Source: Symbiobacterium thermophilum IAM 14863 (GTDB taxonomy: Bacteria > Bacillota > Sulfobacillia > Symbiobacteriales > Symbiobacteriaceae). From it: DNA of 64,000 nt. Shown piece after piece: positions 2,766 to 62,226 of this stretch (the stretch's first letter is position 1; every line of letters begins with the position of its first letter). The position numbers and the translations under genes were made by a program. The DNA lies in assembly GCF_000009905.1 (NCBI RefSeq), contig NC_006177.1, positions 248,001-312,000 of the forward strand, read 5' to 3'. The notes under the pieces were generated by a model, which saw nothing but the letters and a program-made list of their open reading frames with translations, searched no databases and was not told where the DNA came from.

Positions 2766-3812
2766 TTGATCGATCTCGAACGGCTGCTGAAACTGATGGA
2801 TCCGGATCCCATCCGGGTTGACGCGCAGGCCTGCCTGGCGGCGCGGCACCGGCACTCCAGCTGCCGACGCTGTGCGGAGGCGTGCCCGACCTCTGCGCTG
2901 CGGGTCGAGGGCGGGAGGGTGTGGGCGGACCCCGCCGTCTGCGATCGCTGCGGCATCTGCGCCGGCGTCTGCCCCACGGCGGCCGTCTCCGTCAGGGGCA
3001 TCGACGACGAGGCGGTTCTCTCCGCGGCGGCCGTGCGATGCGAGAAGGCCGCCGGCGACGGTCTTCGCCTGCCCTGCCTGGGCTACTTGTCGGTGGACCA
3101 CCTGCTCGCGATGGCCCTCCGCCATGGCCGGGTGGAGCTCGCCGCCGGCGACTGCGAGTCCTGCTTCCGCAAGGTTGGCGGGGAGCTGGCCCGGGAGGCG
3201 GTGGCGCTGGCGCGGGCGGCGCTGGCCGCACTGGGGTCGGATCACGCGATTCGTCTGACGACAGAGGGCGGCGCCGAAGCGGCCACGCCGAGCCTGACCC
3301 GGCGGGAGCTGCTGAGCCTCTGGCGCACCGAGTCGGCCCAGGCGGCCCGCCAGCTGCTCCCCGAACCGGAGCTCAACCACGCGCGTCTGCCCGCCCGGCT
3401 GCCCCGGCGGCGCGCCCGCTGGCTGCGGCGGCTCGACCCGGACGCGACCCGGGCCGGGGAGATGCCCGCAGGACCGTGGAAGGCCCGCCGCGCGACGGAC
3501 GCATGTACCGGCTGCGGCATCTGCGCCGCGTTCTGCCCGACCGGCAGCCTGGCCGCGGAAGGGGCGGAAGCCGGGTGGACGCTCACCCACCAGCCGGCCG
3601 CGTGCGTGGCCTGCGGCACCTGTGTGGATCTCTGCCCGGCACGGGCGATGGGGGAGGCGCCCCTCGCGGTCGAGGACCTGGCCCGCGGGGAGCGGCGTGC
3701 GCTCATCCAGCTGGTCGAGTGCCGCTGCCGCCACTGCCGTCGAACCTTCCGGGGCCGCCCCGGGGAGACGCAGTGCCCGGGTTGCAGGAATATACTGGGA
3801 GGCCGCGTGTAA
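2766..3812 (+). CDS. Multi-cluster 4Fe-4S ferredoxin-like protein with a C-terminal zinc ribbon
   Basis: A 348-residue cytoplasmic protein that probably carries electrons. An N-terminal pair of clusters is followed by a roughly 150-residue middle region and a second pair, CTGCGICAAFCP and CVACGTCVDLCP. CDRCGICAGVCP in the first pair is complete. The very first motif reads H-x2-C-x2-C-x3-C-P (H30, C33, C36, C40), so His stands where the first Cys is expected. The C-terminus has CRCRHC and CPGC, a likely zinc ribbon. The TTG start at 2766 is preceded by GGGGGGAG. It has no oxidoreductase partner next door. The partner and pathway are unknown. Confidence 0.8.
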   Translation: MIDLERLLKLMDPDPIRVDAQACLAARHRHSSCRRCAEACPTSALRVEGGRVWADPAVCDRCGICAGVCPTAAVSVRGIDDEAVLSAAAVRCEKAAGDGLRLPCLGYLSVDHLLAMALRHGRVELAAGDCESCFRKVGGELAREAVALARAALAALGSDHAIRLTTEGGAEAATPSLTRRELLSLWRTESAQAARQLLPEPELNHARLPARLPRRRARWLRRLDPDATRAGEMPAGPWKARRATDACTGCGICAAFCPTGSLAAEGAEAGWTLTHQPAACVACGTCVDLCPARAMGEAPLAVEDLARGERRALIQLVECRCRHCRRTFRGRPGETQCPGCRNILGGRV

Positions 3813-3835
3813 ACCATCATCCCACATAGTAGACG

Positions 3836-3865
3836 ATCCGGCTGGGTTTATCCAGCCGGATTTTC
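3836..3865 (+). terminator. Terminator of the ferredoxin-like gene
   Basis: A perfect 10-bp stem ATCCGGCTGG/CCAGCCGGAT with a 6-nt loop runs into TTTTCT, 24 nt after the stop codon. Confidence 0.85.
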
Positions 3866-3880
3866 TGAACCCAGGCGCGA

Positions 3881-3918
3881 ACCAACGTGCGGCACCGCAT
3901 CCGGTGCCGCACGTTGGT
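3881..3918. repeat. Perfect 17-bp inverted repeat
   Basis: ACCAACGTGCGGCACCG and its exact complement are separated by CATC. There is no T-tract on either side. It lies between the ferredoxin terminator and the 3' end of amtB, so it may be an RNA-stabilising hairpin or a protein site. Confidence 0.7.
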
Positions 3919-3994
3919 CTCGGGCAGGCGTCCGTGTCGCCCGCACAGCCCGTGGGGGTCGTTGGTCGTCGCACGCGCCGGTGACGGGGAGCCG

Positions 3995-28291: not shown

Positions 28292-28525
28292 ATGACGACG
28301 TTCGTGCTGGTTCTGCACACCCTGTTTGCCCTGGGCCTGATCTCCACCGTGCTGCTGCAGTCCGGGAAGAGCGCCGGGCTGTCGGGCTCCATCGCCGGCG
28401 CGGGCGAGCAGATCTTCGGCAAGAAGAAGGGCCTGGACGAGATCCTCAACCGCTTCAGCATGGCCTTTGCCACCCTCTTCGTGCTGACGTCCGTGCTCAT
28501 GCTGTTCCTGGAGGCGCGCGGCTAG
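28292..28525 (+). CDS. secG: Preprotein translocase subunit SecG
   Basis: A 77-residue subunit of the SecYEG channel. Two membrane helices (about residues 3-20 and 55-74) flank the typical LLQSGKSAGLSGSI loop. The ATG at 28292 follows GAGGGGGTGA. The gene order eno-secG-esterase is found in Bacillus and relatives; the usual rnr-smpB do not follow here. Confidence 0.93.
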   Translation: MTTFVLVLHTLFALGLISTVLLQSGKSAGLSGSIAGAGEQIFGKKKGLDEILNRFSMAFATLFVLTSVLMLFLEARG

Positions 28526-28594
28526 TCTGGCAACGCCGTTTGGGGGCCGGGGGAAACCCGGCCTTTCTTGCGTTGGAAGCGGGAGGGAGCCGCC

Positions 28595-29281
28595 ATGCCG
28601 ATCGCAAGGCGCAGCCGGGAGGCCGTCTACCTGCGCGCCGGCCCGGTGGGCTGCCTGGTCCTGCACGGGTTCGGCGGTTCGCCGGCTGAGGTCCGGCCGC
28701 TGGTGGAAGGCCTTGCGGCGCGCGGGATCACCGTGTGCGCACCGGTGCTGCCCGGTCACGGTCCCGACGCCGCGAACCTGGGCCGCACCCGTCTCCGGCA
28801 CTGGATCCGGGGAGCCGAGGGGGCGCTGCGGGAGCTGCAGGCCGCGTGCGCCGAGGTGCACGTGGCAGGGTTTTCGCTGGGCGGGCTGATCGCGCTGCAC
28901 CTGGCGGCGCGGCACCCGGTAAGCTCCGTCTGCACCCTGGCGGCGCCGATCCTGGCGGAAGATCCCGGGGCGATCGGCGCCCGGCTGTCCGCGTACCTGG
29001 GGGATCCTGCGGCCGCGATGCCGGCCCTGCGGTCCCTGGTGCGGCTGGCGCGCCTTGCGCGGCGGGATCTGGGGAGGGTCCGGGCGCCCGTCCTGGTGCT
29101 GCAGGGCGACCGGGACGACTGGATCGCGCCGGAGAGCGGTCAGTACCTGGCGGAGCGGCTGTCCTCGGCCCGGCTCGTCGTGCTGCCCGGCCGGGGCCAC
29201 TTCCTGGCGCTGGAGCGCGGCCGGGAGGAGGTGGCCGTCCGGATAGCGCAGTGGATCACGGCACGCAGTGAACCAAAGTAG
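28595..29281 (+). CDS. Carboxylesterase of the Est30 type
   Basis: A 228-residue alpha/beta hydrolase. Oxyanion-loop HGFGGSPAEV, nucleophile in GFSLGG, acid in QGDRDDWI, and the catalytic His in GRGHFLALE form a complete triad. The ATG at 28595 follows GGGAGGG. Its position after secG matches the yvaK/est gene of other Firmicutes, which cleaves short-chain esters; the physiological substrate is unknown. Confidence 0.88.
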   Translation: MPIARRSREAVYLRAGPVGCLVLHGFGGSPAEVRPLVEGLAARGITVCAPVLPGHGPDAANLGRTRLRHWIRGAEGALRELQAACAEVHVAGFSLGGLIALHLAARHPVSSVCTLAAPILAEDPGAIGARLSAYLGDPAAAMPALRSLVRLARLARRDLGRVRAPVLVLQGDRDDWIAPESGQYLAERLSSARLVVLPGRGHFLALERGREEVAVRIAQWITARSEPK

Positions 29282-29375
29282 CCACCCACAAAATGAGCCA
29301 TTCCCGGGGTAGGCTATATCGAGGCGATCCGCTAGTATTATTTGTGACGGCTGTCACAAGAGGCGGGTGATCGTT

Positions 29376-30194
29376 GTGATTGGGCCGATCCTGAGGCGCG
29401 CCGCAGCCGGGCGAACGCCGAGTCGCCGGGAGATCCTGCTCATGTTGCGGGCCGAGGACGAGGAGTACCGCAGTCTGCTGGAGGTGGCCGGCCGCATCTG
29501 TCGGCAGAAGAAAGGTGAAGAGCCGTCACTGCGTTTTCTCGTCGACCTGGAGGTGAGCGACCCCCAGCGGATACGGGAGGACGTGGTTCACGCTTGGAGA
29601 ACAGGATGCGCGTCGGTGCTCCTCTGCGCTTCGTCGGGGTACGACGCGGTGGACGAGGTCGCTGCGCTGATCCGGGACATTGCCGAGGAGACAGACATGC
29701 AGGTCATCCTGGGCCTGGGGGAGCGGTCCTACGAGGTCTACGCACTGTGGCGGCACGCGGGCGCTGTCGAGTACCTGCTGCCCCATGACTCCTGCAACCC
29801 GGACCTCTTCTCGCAACTGCACCCGGGCCATTCGCCGGCCGTCCGGCTCACCCGGGGCCTGTGGCTGAAGGGACTGGGCTACCGCGTGACGGGGGGCATC
29901 TGCGTGGGCATCGACGGGGAGACCGATGAGGATCTGGCCGACGACCTGGAGGTGCTGCGCAACGCAGGCCTCACCGGCGTGATGGTCCGCTCCGCCGGCG
30001 GCGCCGGCGACCTGCTCAGGGTGCTCGCCATCACCCGGCTCTGCCTGCCCGACGCCGACCTCTGGGTGGCCACCGACGATCCGGTGCTGCAGGCCAGGGC
30101 CCTGGGCTGCGGCGCCAACATCCTGGTCACCGCGCACCCCGCCGGTTCGGATCACGAGGTGCCCCGGGCGCTGTCACACGGTATTTCCGGGTAG
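29376..30194 (+). CDS. HydE-like protein lacking the radical-SAM cysteine motif
   Basis: A 272-residue protein whose barrel matches the [FeFe]-hydrogenase maturase HydE: VILGLGERSYEVYALWRHAG, EYLLPHDSCNPDLFSQLHP, GICVGIDGETDEDLADDL and ITRLCLPDADLWVATDD. HydE proteins normally carry CX3CX2C after the segment aligned with GEEPSLR here (about residues 47-53). In this protein the next residues are FLVDLEVSDPQR with no cysteine, and about 20 residues seem deleted. Nearby cysteines (42, 78, 84) do not make a radical-SAM motif. The C-terminus is also shorter than HydE. The GTG at 29376 fits AGAGGCGGG better than 29367. It lies just before the S-box switch. Confidence 0.8.
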   Translation: MIGPILRRAAAGRTPSRREILLMLRAEDEEYRSLLEVAGRICRQKKGEEPSLRFLVDLEVSDPQRIREDVVHAWRTGCASVLLCASSGYDAVDEVAALIRDIAEETDMQVILGLGERSYEVYALWRHAGAVEYLLPHDSCNPDLFSQLHPGHSPAVRLTRGLWLKGLGYRVTGGICVGIDGETDEDLADDLEVLRNAGLTGVMVRSAGGAGDLLRVLAITRLCLPDADLWVATDDPVLQARALGCGANILVTAHPAGSDHEVPRALSHGISG

Positions 30195-30214
30195 TGGCTG
30201 CGCGGATTTCGATA

Positions 30215-30243
30215 TTGACGGCTGCCACACACCGTGGTATGCT
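30215..30243 (+). promoter_or_regulatory. Promoter of the metNIQ operon
   Basis: TTGACG, 17 bp and TATGCT, ending about 28 nt upstream of the S-box aptamer. Confidence 0.8.
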
Positions 30244-30271
30244 TAGCGCAAATAGCATATCGGACCGTTGA

Positions 30272-30389
30272 CTCTTATCCAGAGTAGGCTGAGGGACTGG
30301 CCCGATGACGCCACGGCAACCGGCACGTCTCCCCAGGCGTGCAGCGGTGCCAATTCCTGGGGAGGGCTCCGCCCTCCCGAAGATGAGAG
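30272..30389 (+). promoter_or_regulatory. SAM-I (S-box) riboswitch aptamer
   Basis: P1 pairs CTCTTATC (30272-30279) with GATGAGAG (30382-30389). The conserved core GAGGGACTGGCCCGATGA and GGCAACC is present. By family knowledge S-adenosylmethionine binding promotes termination, so metNIQ is expressed when SAM is low. Confidence 0.95.
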
Positions 30390-30411
30390 GCAGCCGGAAG
30401 TCGTTCATTCT

Positions 30412-30440
30412 GTGCGCCTCTTTGTTGGGGCGCACTTTTC
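30412..30440 (+). terminator. S-box expression-platform terminator
   Basis: GTGCGCC and GGCGCAC form a 7-bp stem followed by TTTTC, 27 nt upstream of metN. Confidence 0.88.
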
Positions 30441-30466
30441 TATTGCCGAAACGGGGGTAAGTCCTG

Positions 30467-31465
30467 GTGATCGAGCTCAAGGGCCTCACCAAGGTGTTCA
30501 GACAAAACGGGCAGGAGATCGTGGCCCTGAGCGACGTCAACCTGCACGTGCCGCGGGGCCAGATCTTCGGCATCCTCGGCCAGAGCGGCGCCGGCAAGTC
30601 CACCCTCATCCGCTGCGTCAACCTGCTGGAACGCCCCACCGCGGGTGAGGTCTGGGTGGACGGTCGGGAGATCACCCGCCTGTCCCCCGGGGAACTGAGG
30701 GCGGCCCGGCGGGAGATGGGCATGATCTTCCAGCAGTTCAACCTGTTCGACTCCCGCACCGTCTTCGGCAACGTCGCCTATCCGCTGGAGGTGGCCGGCT
30801 GGCCCCGGGCGCGCATCCGGGAGCGGGTGGAGGAGCTGCTTGCCCTGGTGGGGCTCGCGGACAAGGCCGGGGCGTATCCGAACCAGCTATCGGGCGGCCA
30901 GAAGCAGCGGGTCGGCATCGCCCGGGCGCTGGCGCCGGGGCCCAAACTCCTCCTCTCCGACGAGGCCACGTCGGCGCTGGACCCCGATACCACCCGGTCC
31001 GTGCTGGCGCTGCTGCGGGAGATCAACCGGCGGCTCGGGCTGACCATCCTGCTGATCACCCATCAGATGGAGGTCGTCAAGCAGGTCTGCGACTCGGTGG
31101 CCATCCTGGAGGAAGGCAAGGTGGTCGAGCAAGGCGGTGTGCTGGAGCTGATCGGCCGGCCCGGCTCGCGGCTGCGGGAGCTGTTCTACGAATCCACGGA
31201 GGAGGCTGCCCACAGGATCCACCCCGACGGGGTGCGTGTGTTGCTCTTCTTCGTCGGCGCCTCCGCCGACCGGCCGCTGATCAGCGAGACGGTCCGCCGG
31301 TTCCGGGTGGACGCCAACATCCTGCAGGGGGCGGTCGAGCGGATCGCCGGGGCGACCGTGGGCCGGTTGCTCGTGGAGTTCACCGGCCTGCCCGAGGACA
31401 TTCAGGACGCCCTGCGCTTCCTGGAGGAGCAGGGGGCCTCGCCGGAGGTGATACCAAATGGCTGA
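30467..31465 (+). CDS. metN: Methionine ABC transporter ATPase
   Basis: A 332-residue ATPase for D/L-methionine import. Walker A is GQSGAGKST, the signature LSGGQKQRV, Walker B LLLSDEATSALDP. The C-terminal roughly 80 residues form the NIL ligand-binding domain of MetN, which gives feedback inhibition by methionine. The GTG start follows GGGGGTAAG. metI begins 8 nt before its end. The S-box upstream confirms the substrate class. Confidence 0.95.
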   Translation: MIELKGLTKVFRQNGQEIVALSDVNLHVPRGQIFGILGQSGAGKSTLIRCVNLLERPTAGEVWVDGREITRLSPGELRAARREMGMIFQQFNLFDSRTVFGNVAYPLEVAGWPRARIRERVEELLALVGLADKAGAYPNQLSGGQKQRVGIARALAPGPKLLLSDEATSALDPDTTRSVLALLREINRRLGLTILLITHQMEVVKQVCDSVAILEEGKVVEQGGVLELIGRPGSRLRELFYESTEEAAHRIHPDGVRVLLFFVGASADRPLISETVRRFRVDANILQGAVERIAGATVGRLLVEFTGLPEDIQDALRFLEEQGASPEVIPNG

Positions 31466-33081: not shown

Positions 33082-33112
33082 GTGGGGAGGGGGGCGGAGC
33101 CCCCCTCCCCAC
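33082..33112 (+). terminator. Hairpin after metQ
   Basis: A perfect 14-bp stem GTGGGGAGGGGGGC and its complement with a 3-nt loop, 5 nt past the stop. There is no T-run. Its 3' arm leads directly into the tandem repeat array and shares its CCTCCCCACCCCC motif. Confidence 0.65.
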
Positions 33113-33896
33113 CCCCACCCCCTGGCAATCGGCAGGCGGTGCCACGGCGGCTGGCCGTACATGCCGGCCAGCCGCCGTGAAGCGGGGGAGGGGGCAGGCG
33201 TGGGATGCTCAGGGAGCAAGGGTGTCCCCCCTCCCCACCCCCACCCCCTGGCAATCGGCAGGCGGTGCCACGGCGGCTGGCCGTACATGCCGGCCAGCCG
33301 CCGTGAAGCGGGGGAGGGGGCAGGCGTGGGATGCTCAGGGAGCAAGGGTGTCCCCCCTCCCCACCCCCACCCCCTGGCAATCGACAGGCGGTGCCACGGC
33401 GGCTGGCCGTACATGCCGGCCAGCCGCCGTGAAGCGGGGGAGGGGGCAGGCGTGGGATGCTCAGGGAGCAAGGGTGTCCCCCCTCCCCACCCCCACCCCC
33501 TGGCAATCGGCAGGCGGTGCCACGGCGGCTGGCCGTACATGCCGGCCAGCCGCCGTGAAGCGGGGGAGGGGGCAGGCGTGGGATGCTCAGGGAGCAAGGG
33601 TGTCCCCCCTCCCCACCCCCACCCCCTGGCAATCGGCAGGCGGTGCCACGGCGGCTGGCCGTACATGCCGGCCAGCCGCCGTGAAGCGGGGGAGGGGGCA
33701 GGCGTGGGATGCTCAGGGAGCAAGGGTGTCCCCCCTCCCCACCCCCACCCCCTGGCAATCGACAGGCGGTGCCACGGCGGCTGGCCGTACATGCCGGCCA
33801 GCCGCCGTGAAGCGGGGGAGGGGGCAGGCGTGGGATGCTCAGGGAGCAAGGGTGTCCCCCCTCCGGCTGGCAATCGGCAGGCAGTGCCATGAACAT
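33100..33896. repeat. 126-bp tandem repeat array
   Basis: Six full units start at 33122, 33248, 33374, 33500, 33626 and 33752, with a partial seventh at 33878. Each unit contains a 15-bp perfect inverted repeat around a 7-nt loop (33143-33179 in the first). Units 3 and 6 carry CGACAGG where the others have CGGCAGG, so a three-unit block of 378 bp was itself duplicated. The period is a multiple of 3, which keeps all frames open and creates false proteins on both strands. Confidence 0.95.
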
Positions 33897-54922: not shown

Positions 54923-55120
54923 TGCGTATTCCGGTCAAATCGACCAGTGATTCCGGTTCAAGCCGACCACTGGTTCTGATCCAAGTCGACCGCCGTTTCC
55001 GATCTCATCCGGCCAGCGCGGTGGCACTGAGGGGACGGAGCGAAGTGGCGATGGCTTGGCAGCGCTAAGCCATGCTCGACTGGGATGTCTGGAGGTTCGC
55101 TATCTTCCGCATGGATTCCC
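54923..55120 (-). mobile_element. 198-bp remnant of an IS21-family right end
   Basis: By eye identical, in reverse orientation, to 61912-62109, the last 198 bp of the complete IS21 element, including the last codons of istB and the TGCGTATTCCGG terminal repeat at 54923. It separates the truncated ATPase from another gene fragment. Confidence 0.9.
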
Positions 55121-59438: not shown

Positions 59439-59681
59439 GGTGCGTATTCCGGACGGATTCGACCACTCATTCCGGTCGAATCCGTCCACTTATTACGGAT
59501 GAAATCGACCACCGTTTGCGGGGATAGTCGACCGCCCATTCCGGCCCAAATCGACCGGCTCGAATCCTAGAGCGAAGCGGCATGGTCGACCATTACAGGG
59601 TTTTGCCGGCTCCTCCCGAATTGTGGATAACATCTCCACACGAGAGGACGTGGGCAAGCCTTGGCAAATCGGAGGTTGTCG

Positions 59682-61967: not shown

Positions 61968-62226
61968 CGCTGCCAAGCCATCGCCACTTCGCTCCGTCCC
62001 CTCAGTGCCACCGCGCTGGCCGGATGAGATCGGAAACGGCGGTCGACTTGGATCAGAACCAGTGGTCGGCTTGAACCGGAATCACTGGTCGATTTGACCG
62101 GAATACGCAAAGAGATAGTGAGCCACTTTGATCATCGAAAAGTGAGCCACCTGCCAGCCCTATAGGGCTGTTTTTGTTTCCATTGCCGTTTCCAGTTGTC
62201 AGGCTACCTGCGGAGGCCCAAGGGAC

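Follow-up and report, generated by a model that had tools for sequence, protein, structure and literature searches.

A conserved HydE paralogue without the radical-SAM cysteines, and its candidate redox-type operator, in Symbiobacterium thermophilum

Results

Gene anatomy and locus

The DNA analysed here (the window) is a stretch of 64,000 nucleotides, positions 248001-312000 of the single contig of 3,566,135 bases that makes up the genome of S. thermophilum IAM 14863. Its gene order includes eno-secG-est-(HydE-like ORF)-metNIQ, with the HydE-like ORF between an esterase gene (est) and the genes of a methionine transporter (metNIQ). The ORF opens with GTG and closes with TAG at the limits given in Table 1. 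An alternative in-frame GTG at 29367, which would give 275 aa, was rejected as the start because all the orthologues have V/M-IGP as their first residues, at the position matching 29376. The ribosome binding site reported by an earlier first-pass annotation, which saw the letters of the sequence alone, is indeed there, as a conserved Shine-Dalgarno-like element. A terminator-like hairpin accompanies the SAM-I riboswitch ahead of metNIQ, the two together spanning 30272-30435. As metNIQ has its own promoter-like sequence and SAM riboswitch, the HydE-like gene appears to be a separate transcription unit. Judged by its sequence, this gene is intact and looks expressed.

Table 1 Features of the HydE-like gene and its surroundings (window coordinates)
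Feature	Position	Strand	Basis
Weak, conserved promoter-like TAGGCT-N17-TAGTAT, directly 5' of the palindrome	29308..29336	+	By eye, three-way alignment; not among sigma-70 scan results
Perfect 18-bp palindrome TTGTGACGGCTGTCACAA, candidate operator of Rex or Crp-Fnr type, conserved in both orthologues	29342..29359	.	Genome scan, alignment
Shine-Dalgarno-like AGGCGGGTGATC, conserved in orthologues	29361..29372	+	Sequence, three-way alignment
CDS of HydE-derived (β/α)8-barrel protein without radical-SAM motif, 272 aa	29376..30194	+	ORF, profile, alignment, model
Junction where HydE has the CX3CX2C segment; LRFLVDLE/VSDPQRI contiguous here, codons about 53-60	29532..29553	+	Alignment
Promoter-like TTGACG-N17-TATGCT, separate, for the downstream metNIQ unit	30215..30243	+	Sigma-70 scan
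SAM-I riboswitch of the downstream metNIQ unit, a neighbour outside the HydE-like gene	30272..30389	+	

Homology to HydE and the missing cluster motif

The first-pass annotation had described the ORF as HydE-like, and this was borne out by both sequence searches. The top NCBIfam match was HydE (TIGR03956, E 1e-17), with 64.4 bits against an equivalog cut-off of 254.6, which the ORF does not reach and which the canonical HydE of the same genome, at 363.6 bits, exceeds. In the PDB sequence search the best E value was 8.6e-20, and HydE entries alone gave significant values. The ORF is also homologous over the barrel to the Pfam Radical_SAM domain (PF04055), at 29.7 bits barely above the cut-off of 29.5, the match covering profile positions 23-164 with the cluster motif outside.

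Alignment against 18 HydE rows agreed with the earlier claim that the CX3CX2C motif and some 20 surrounding residues are gone: about 22-25 residues are absent, and both flanks are contiguous. No CX3CX2C was found in the six frames of 28501-31000, and with it falls the possibility, raised at first pass, of an upstream portion surviving in another frame. The GPFIPxPxTPL loop, the PATT segment and about 70 C-terminal residues are missing as well. HydE has 74 invariant or near-invariant alignment columns; in the paralogues 24 of these are unchanged (mostly scaffold Gly, Ala and Leu, and a few Arg), 26 carry other residues, 18 are deleted and 6 are retained in part. Nearly all the HydE-invariant catalytic residues are replaced. 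In the numbering of the genome's own HydE, the losses comprise the cluster cysteines, Gln110 (C84 in the paralogue), Glu165 (D138), Thr138, Ser140, the GPFIP loop with Met228, Pro-Ala-Thr-Thr 270-273, Tyr307, Tyr310 and the C-terminal cap, several of which we take, from the Thermotoga maritima structures, to be cofactor or substrate contacts in HydE. The active-site segments QSGE, RHET, GPFIPxPxTPL, PATT and C-terminal YP are each either substituted or lost in all three orthologues. The cluster is the defining feature of radical-SAM enzymes; with the ligating cysteines absent, neither a site-differentiated [4Fe-4S] cluster nor SAM cleavage would be expected, so the protein should not be a radical-SAM enzyme in the usual sense.

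Compared with HydE itself (TIGR03956; PDB 3CIW, 3IIZ, 7O1P), the paralogue shares homology over the full length of the barrel, the N-terminal helices, the barrel glycines, the position of a SAM-carboxylate-type Arg (R157) and the closest fold. However, it lacks CX3CX2C, GPFIPxPxTPL, PATT and the C-terminal cap, where the auxiliary-cluster region lies, and the active-site Gln, Glu, Thr, Arg and Tyr are replaced. The barrels of BioB, PylB, HydG and ThiH have the same (β/α)8 fold and are the next-best structural neighbours, but all of them retain the radical-SAM cysteines, and their sequence and structural scores lie below those of HydE.

Predicted fold and newly fixed residues

An AlphaFold2 model built from a three-row alignment, one row being a distant HydE (pLDDT 83.5, pTM 0.83), showed eight alternating strands and helices in an intact (β/α)8 barrel. 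Its best structural match was HydE (TM 0.81-0.83; VIA Z 29, rmsd 2.2-2.5 Å), a nearness that the HydE row partly imposes. A first model from two rows, with the HydE row left out, also had HydE as its first match, at a pLDDT of 54.5 that is too poor to stand alone. VIA-align matched many aldolase- and TrpA-type barrels too, at Z values generic for TIM barrels. HydE is thus the closest homologue by sequence and by fold, and no family that never had the motif, the alternative considered at first pass, surpasses it on either measure.

Residues that all three paralogues share and no HydE row has at the same position include C42, D57, C84, S86, E132, P136, D138, C140, C176, W230, D234 and T252. Four cysteines (42, 84, 140 and 176) are thereby newly invariant, within three sequences of one genus. 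C84 replaces a Gln of HydE, D138 a Glu, and C140 and C176 residues that are Met, Ile or Leu. The model places C84, D138/C140, C176 and D234 close to, or at, the C-terminal ends of strands 2, 4, 5 and 7, on the active-site face, and from the alignment and the HydE structure, three of the four new cysteines presumably surround the former SAM pocket. This placement is the basis for supposing that the pocket has been rebuilt with thiols and acids and may bind a ligand or a metal, a model-based idea that we consider possible and would not call probable. Such a pocket would be no less compatible with a new enzyme, or with a protein that binds a metal or ligand, than with the regulator or scaffold imagined at first pass.

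Orthologues, distribution and descent

Orthologues of equal length (272 aa) with the same gaps, and thus with the same deletion, are present in both other sequenced genomes of the genus, here G001 (66-68% identity) and G002 (76-77%). The three loci are syntenic, in the order eno-(secG)-est-gene-metN-metI-metQ, with secG seen in G002 and in the window. Across these genomes the dN/dS of the gene is 0.24-0.26 (bootstrap 95% upper bound 0.36), no higher than that of the adjoining esterase (0.31-0.42; metN, 0.13-0.20). The dN is about 2.5-4 times that of HydE itself, indicating faster evolution.

The full-length paralogue was found in only 3 of the 154 genomes of the class, and there was no other complete motif-less HydE among these or the best hits from 398 genomes of the phylum. 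Motif inspection covered 94 HydE-like ORFs in loci from the class and phylum searches, taken for the phylum from the best hits of a longer list; the motif was absent from the three paralogues and one fragment (L109), which was rejected as a further case because it lies at a contig edge. A related-locus search of genome contigs returned the G002 copy alone, and the corresponding search of viral contigs found no paralogue. G004, which belongs to the same family, has different genes after eno-secG-est, and neither the paralogue nor metNIQ is there.

In the tree, the paralogues are monophyletic (100/100) on a long stem. A tree with PylB-like outgroups was set aside for long-branch attraction; when these are left out, the paralogue groups with HydE sequences of the order to which it belongs, at a support of only 40/77, and the AU test does not reject its being sister to the HydE of the genus itself (p-AU 0.26). 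The paralogue probably arose from that order's HydE.

A palindrome upstream of the gene

The palindrome stands between the weak promoter-like sequence and the Shine-Dalgarno element, over the probable transcription start, and is kept upstream of the gene in all three genomes. The exact form TTGTGAN6TCACAA occurs once in the genome, at this gene. TGTGAN6TCACA has four sites, and none in a reversed control: upstream of the HydE-like gene, at cydA, at hcp and at L080. The hcp gene (L041:141-1430), with TGTGACGGTTTTCACA upstream, encodes a short-form hybrid-cluster protein/hydroxylamine reductase, and the L080 site (G000:C1:2583000-2587000, position 1315) is flanked by a response regulator and a small ORF. 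In G001 and G002 the exact TTGTGAAN4TTCACAA precedes a pyridine nucleotide-disulphide oxidoreductase gene (ndh-like). Related sites also precede sdh genes, and a Rex-like site with one mismatch lies ahead of the NADH-dependent [FeFe] hydrogenase operon of G001. All three genomes contain rex and likewise a Crp/Fnr-family protein, encoded in S. thermophilum at L145 (G000:C1:3168000-3174000, 3160-3924). A TGTGAC/GTCACC-like site lies nearby at 3110; gene and site hold the same position in G002 and, more weakly, in G001.

The Rex operator of Staphylococcus aureus is TTGTGAAW4TTCACAA (PMC2883068), and in C. bescii hydG and hydrogenase are under Rex control (PMC6391272). With these regulons our genomes share the operator type (TGTGAN6TCACA/TTGTGAAN4TTCACAA), the rex gene and respiratory and hydrogenase genes as putative targets. 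However, the half-site of the HydE-like gene is TTGTGAC, not TTGTGAA, and a Crp/Fnr-family protein is also encoded. A pure Rex reading is further weakened by the same TGTGAC-type sites at cydA and, more weakly, beside the Crp/Fnr gene, and the L145 regulator is a candidate owner of the operator. Redox-type control of the gene, whether of the Rex or the Crp/Fnr type, is likely from these sequence patterns. Reading the palindrome as an RNA hairpin would be possible in S. thermophilum and G002; it is disfavoured by G001, which breaks an inner pair (C to A) and keeps TGTGA/TCACA, a single observation that leads us to prefer a DNA operator.

Hydrogenase genes

Hydrogenase genes, whose presence in the genome had been left to be checked at first pass, were found elsewhere on the contig. 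HydF, HydE and HydG, all above their family cut-offs, are encoded in one operon at about 388.6-392.3 kb, and two [FeFe]-hydrogenase-type genes lie at 3.42 and 3.52 Mb. All three paralogue-bearing genomes have intact HydF, HydE and HydG and an [FeFe] hydrogenase. As the set is complete, the paralogue is an addition, not a replacement. Its gene lies away from hydF and hydG, and no operon link to HydF, HydG or HydA was found; its position between est and metNIQ leaves ancestry and regulation as the sole ties to hydrogenase.

Discussion

It is almost certain, from anatomy and conservation together, that this gene encodes a real, conserved, non-radical paralogue of HydE. The idea that the motif is really present and was lost through a sequencing, assembly or frame error has a negligible probability: the DNA flanks are contiguous, no nearby frame holds the motif, and the deletion is common to three independent assemblies. 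A duplicate in slow decay, its frame surviving by chance in three genomes, would fit the extensive loss of HydE function and the raised dN, but we consider it very improbable. Indeed, the dN/dS upper bounds are well below 1, the length is identical in all three genomes, replaced residues show the same new residue in each, and promoter, operator and Shine-Dalgarno sequence are all conserved. The same lesions under purifying selection, together with the predicted barrel and the conserved control region, uphold the first-pass view of a non-radical relative as opposed to a decaying gene. Since every part of the radical chemistry is lost while selection and a redox-type site are retained, the protein probably has a new, non-radical job.

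What that job might be can be approached from the maturation machinery, the barrel or the pocket. A pseudo-HydE could bind HydF, HydG or HydE, or the HydE substrate complex-B, and tune hydrogenase assembly upon redox change in an accessory or inhibitory role. The shared presence of HydF, HydE, HydG and [FeFe] hydrogenase in the three genomes agrees with this, as do the reported tighter binding of HydE than of HydG to HydF (reviewed in PMC6212873), the Rex-like site before the G001 hydrogenase operon and the Rex control of hydG in C. bescii. However, the locus is separate from the hyd operon, and G004 and G005 have HydE and do fine without the paralogue; we regard this role as unlikely. A novel enzyme that uses the HydE barrel for non-radical catalysis, through residues such as H137, D138, C84, D234 and D235 at the strand ends, seems to us more unlikely still. 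These residues are among the protein's most constant parts and differ consistently from HydE, and the predicted barrel is intact and matches aldolase- and TrpA-type barrels, though at the generic level; but no known catalytic motif or family was matched in Pfam or NCBIfam, and pathway operon partners are absent.

We tentatively favour, at somewhat less than even chances for the whole, a genus-specific, redox-regulated, non-radical HydE paralogue with a rebuilt pocket. A HydE gene would have been duplicated, and the copy, having lost its [4Fe-4S]/SAM chemistry, would have been retained for another purpose. A Rex- or Crp/Fnr-type repressor may keep the gene off and release it on a change in NADH or respiratory state. 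The old SAM cavity, rebuilt with C84, D138, C140 and C176 plus H137 and D234/D235, could then bind either a metal ion or a small ligand that is thiol-reactive or resembles a nucleoside, and the protein might act as a non-radical carrier or sensor in redox or hydrogen metabolism. A more specific form of this proposal, in which the radical-SAM barrel has become a thiol/His/Asp metal or cofactor site (C84, H137, D138, C140, C176, D234/D235) in a redox-controlled sensor or carrier, is doubtful.

In the open literature searched we found no description of a conserved radical-SAM relative that lacks the cluster and whose fold is under selection. If its role is confirmed, the protein would offer a small, tractable case of the re-use of a radical-SAM barrel, and possibly a previously unrecognised component, under redox control, close to [FeFe]-hydrogenase metabolism. 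It also carries a warning for annotation, as Pfam labels the ORF Radical_SAM although the cluster ligands are absent.

Elsewhere in the window, a 126-bp tandem repeat lies directly downstream of metQ (33100-33864; 6.1 copies, 99% identical), its only place in the genome, and makes long spurious ORFs on both strands. Similar 23-bp tandem units, of the ATTCCGGTTCAAGTCGACCACTG type, occur at 54928-55004, 59446-59512 and 62041-62104.
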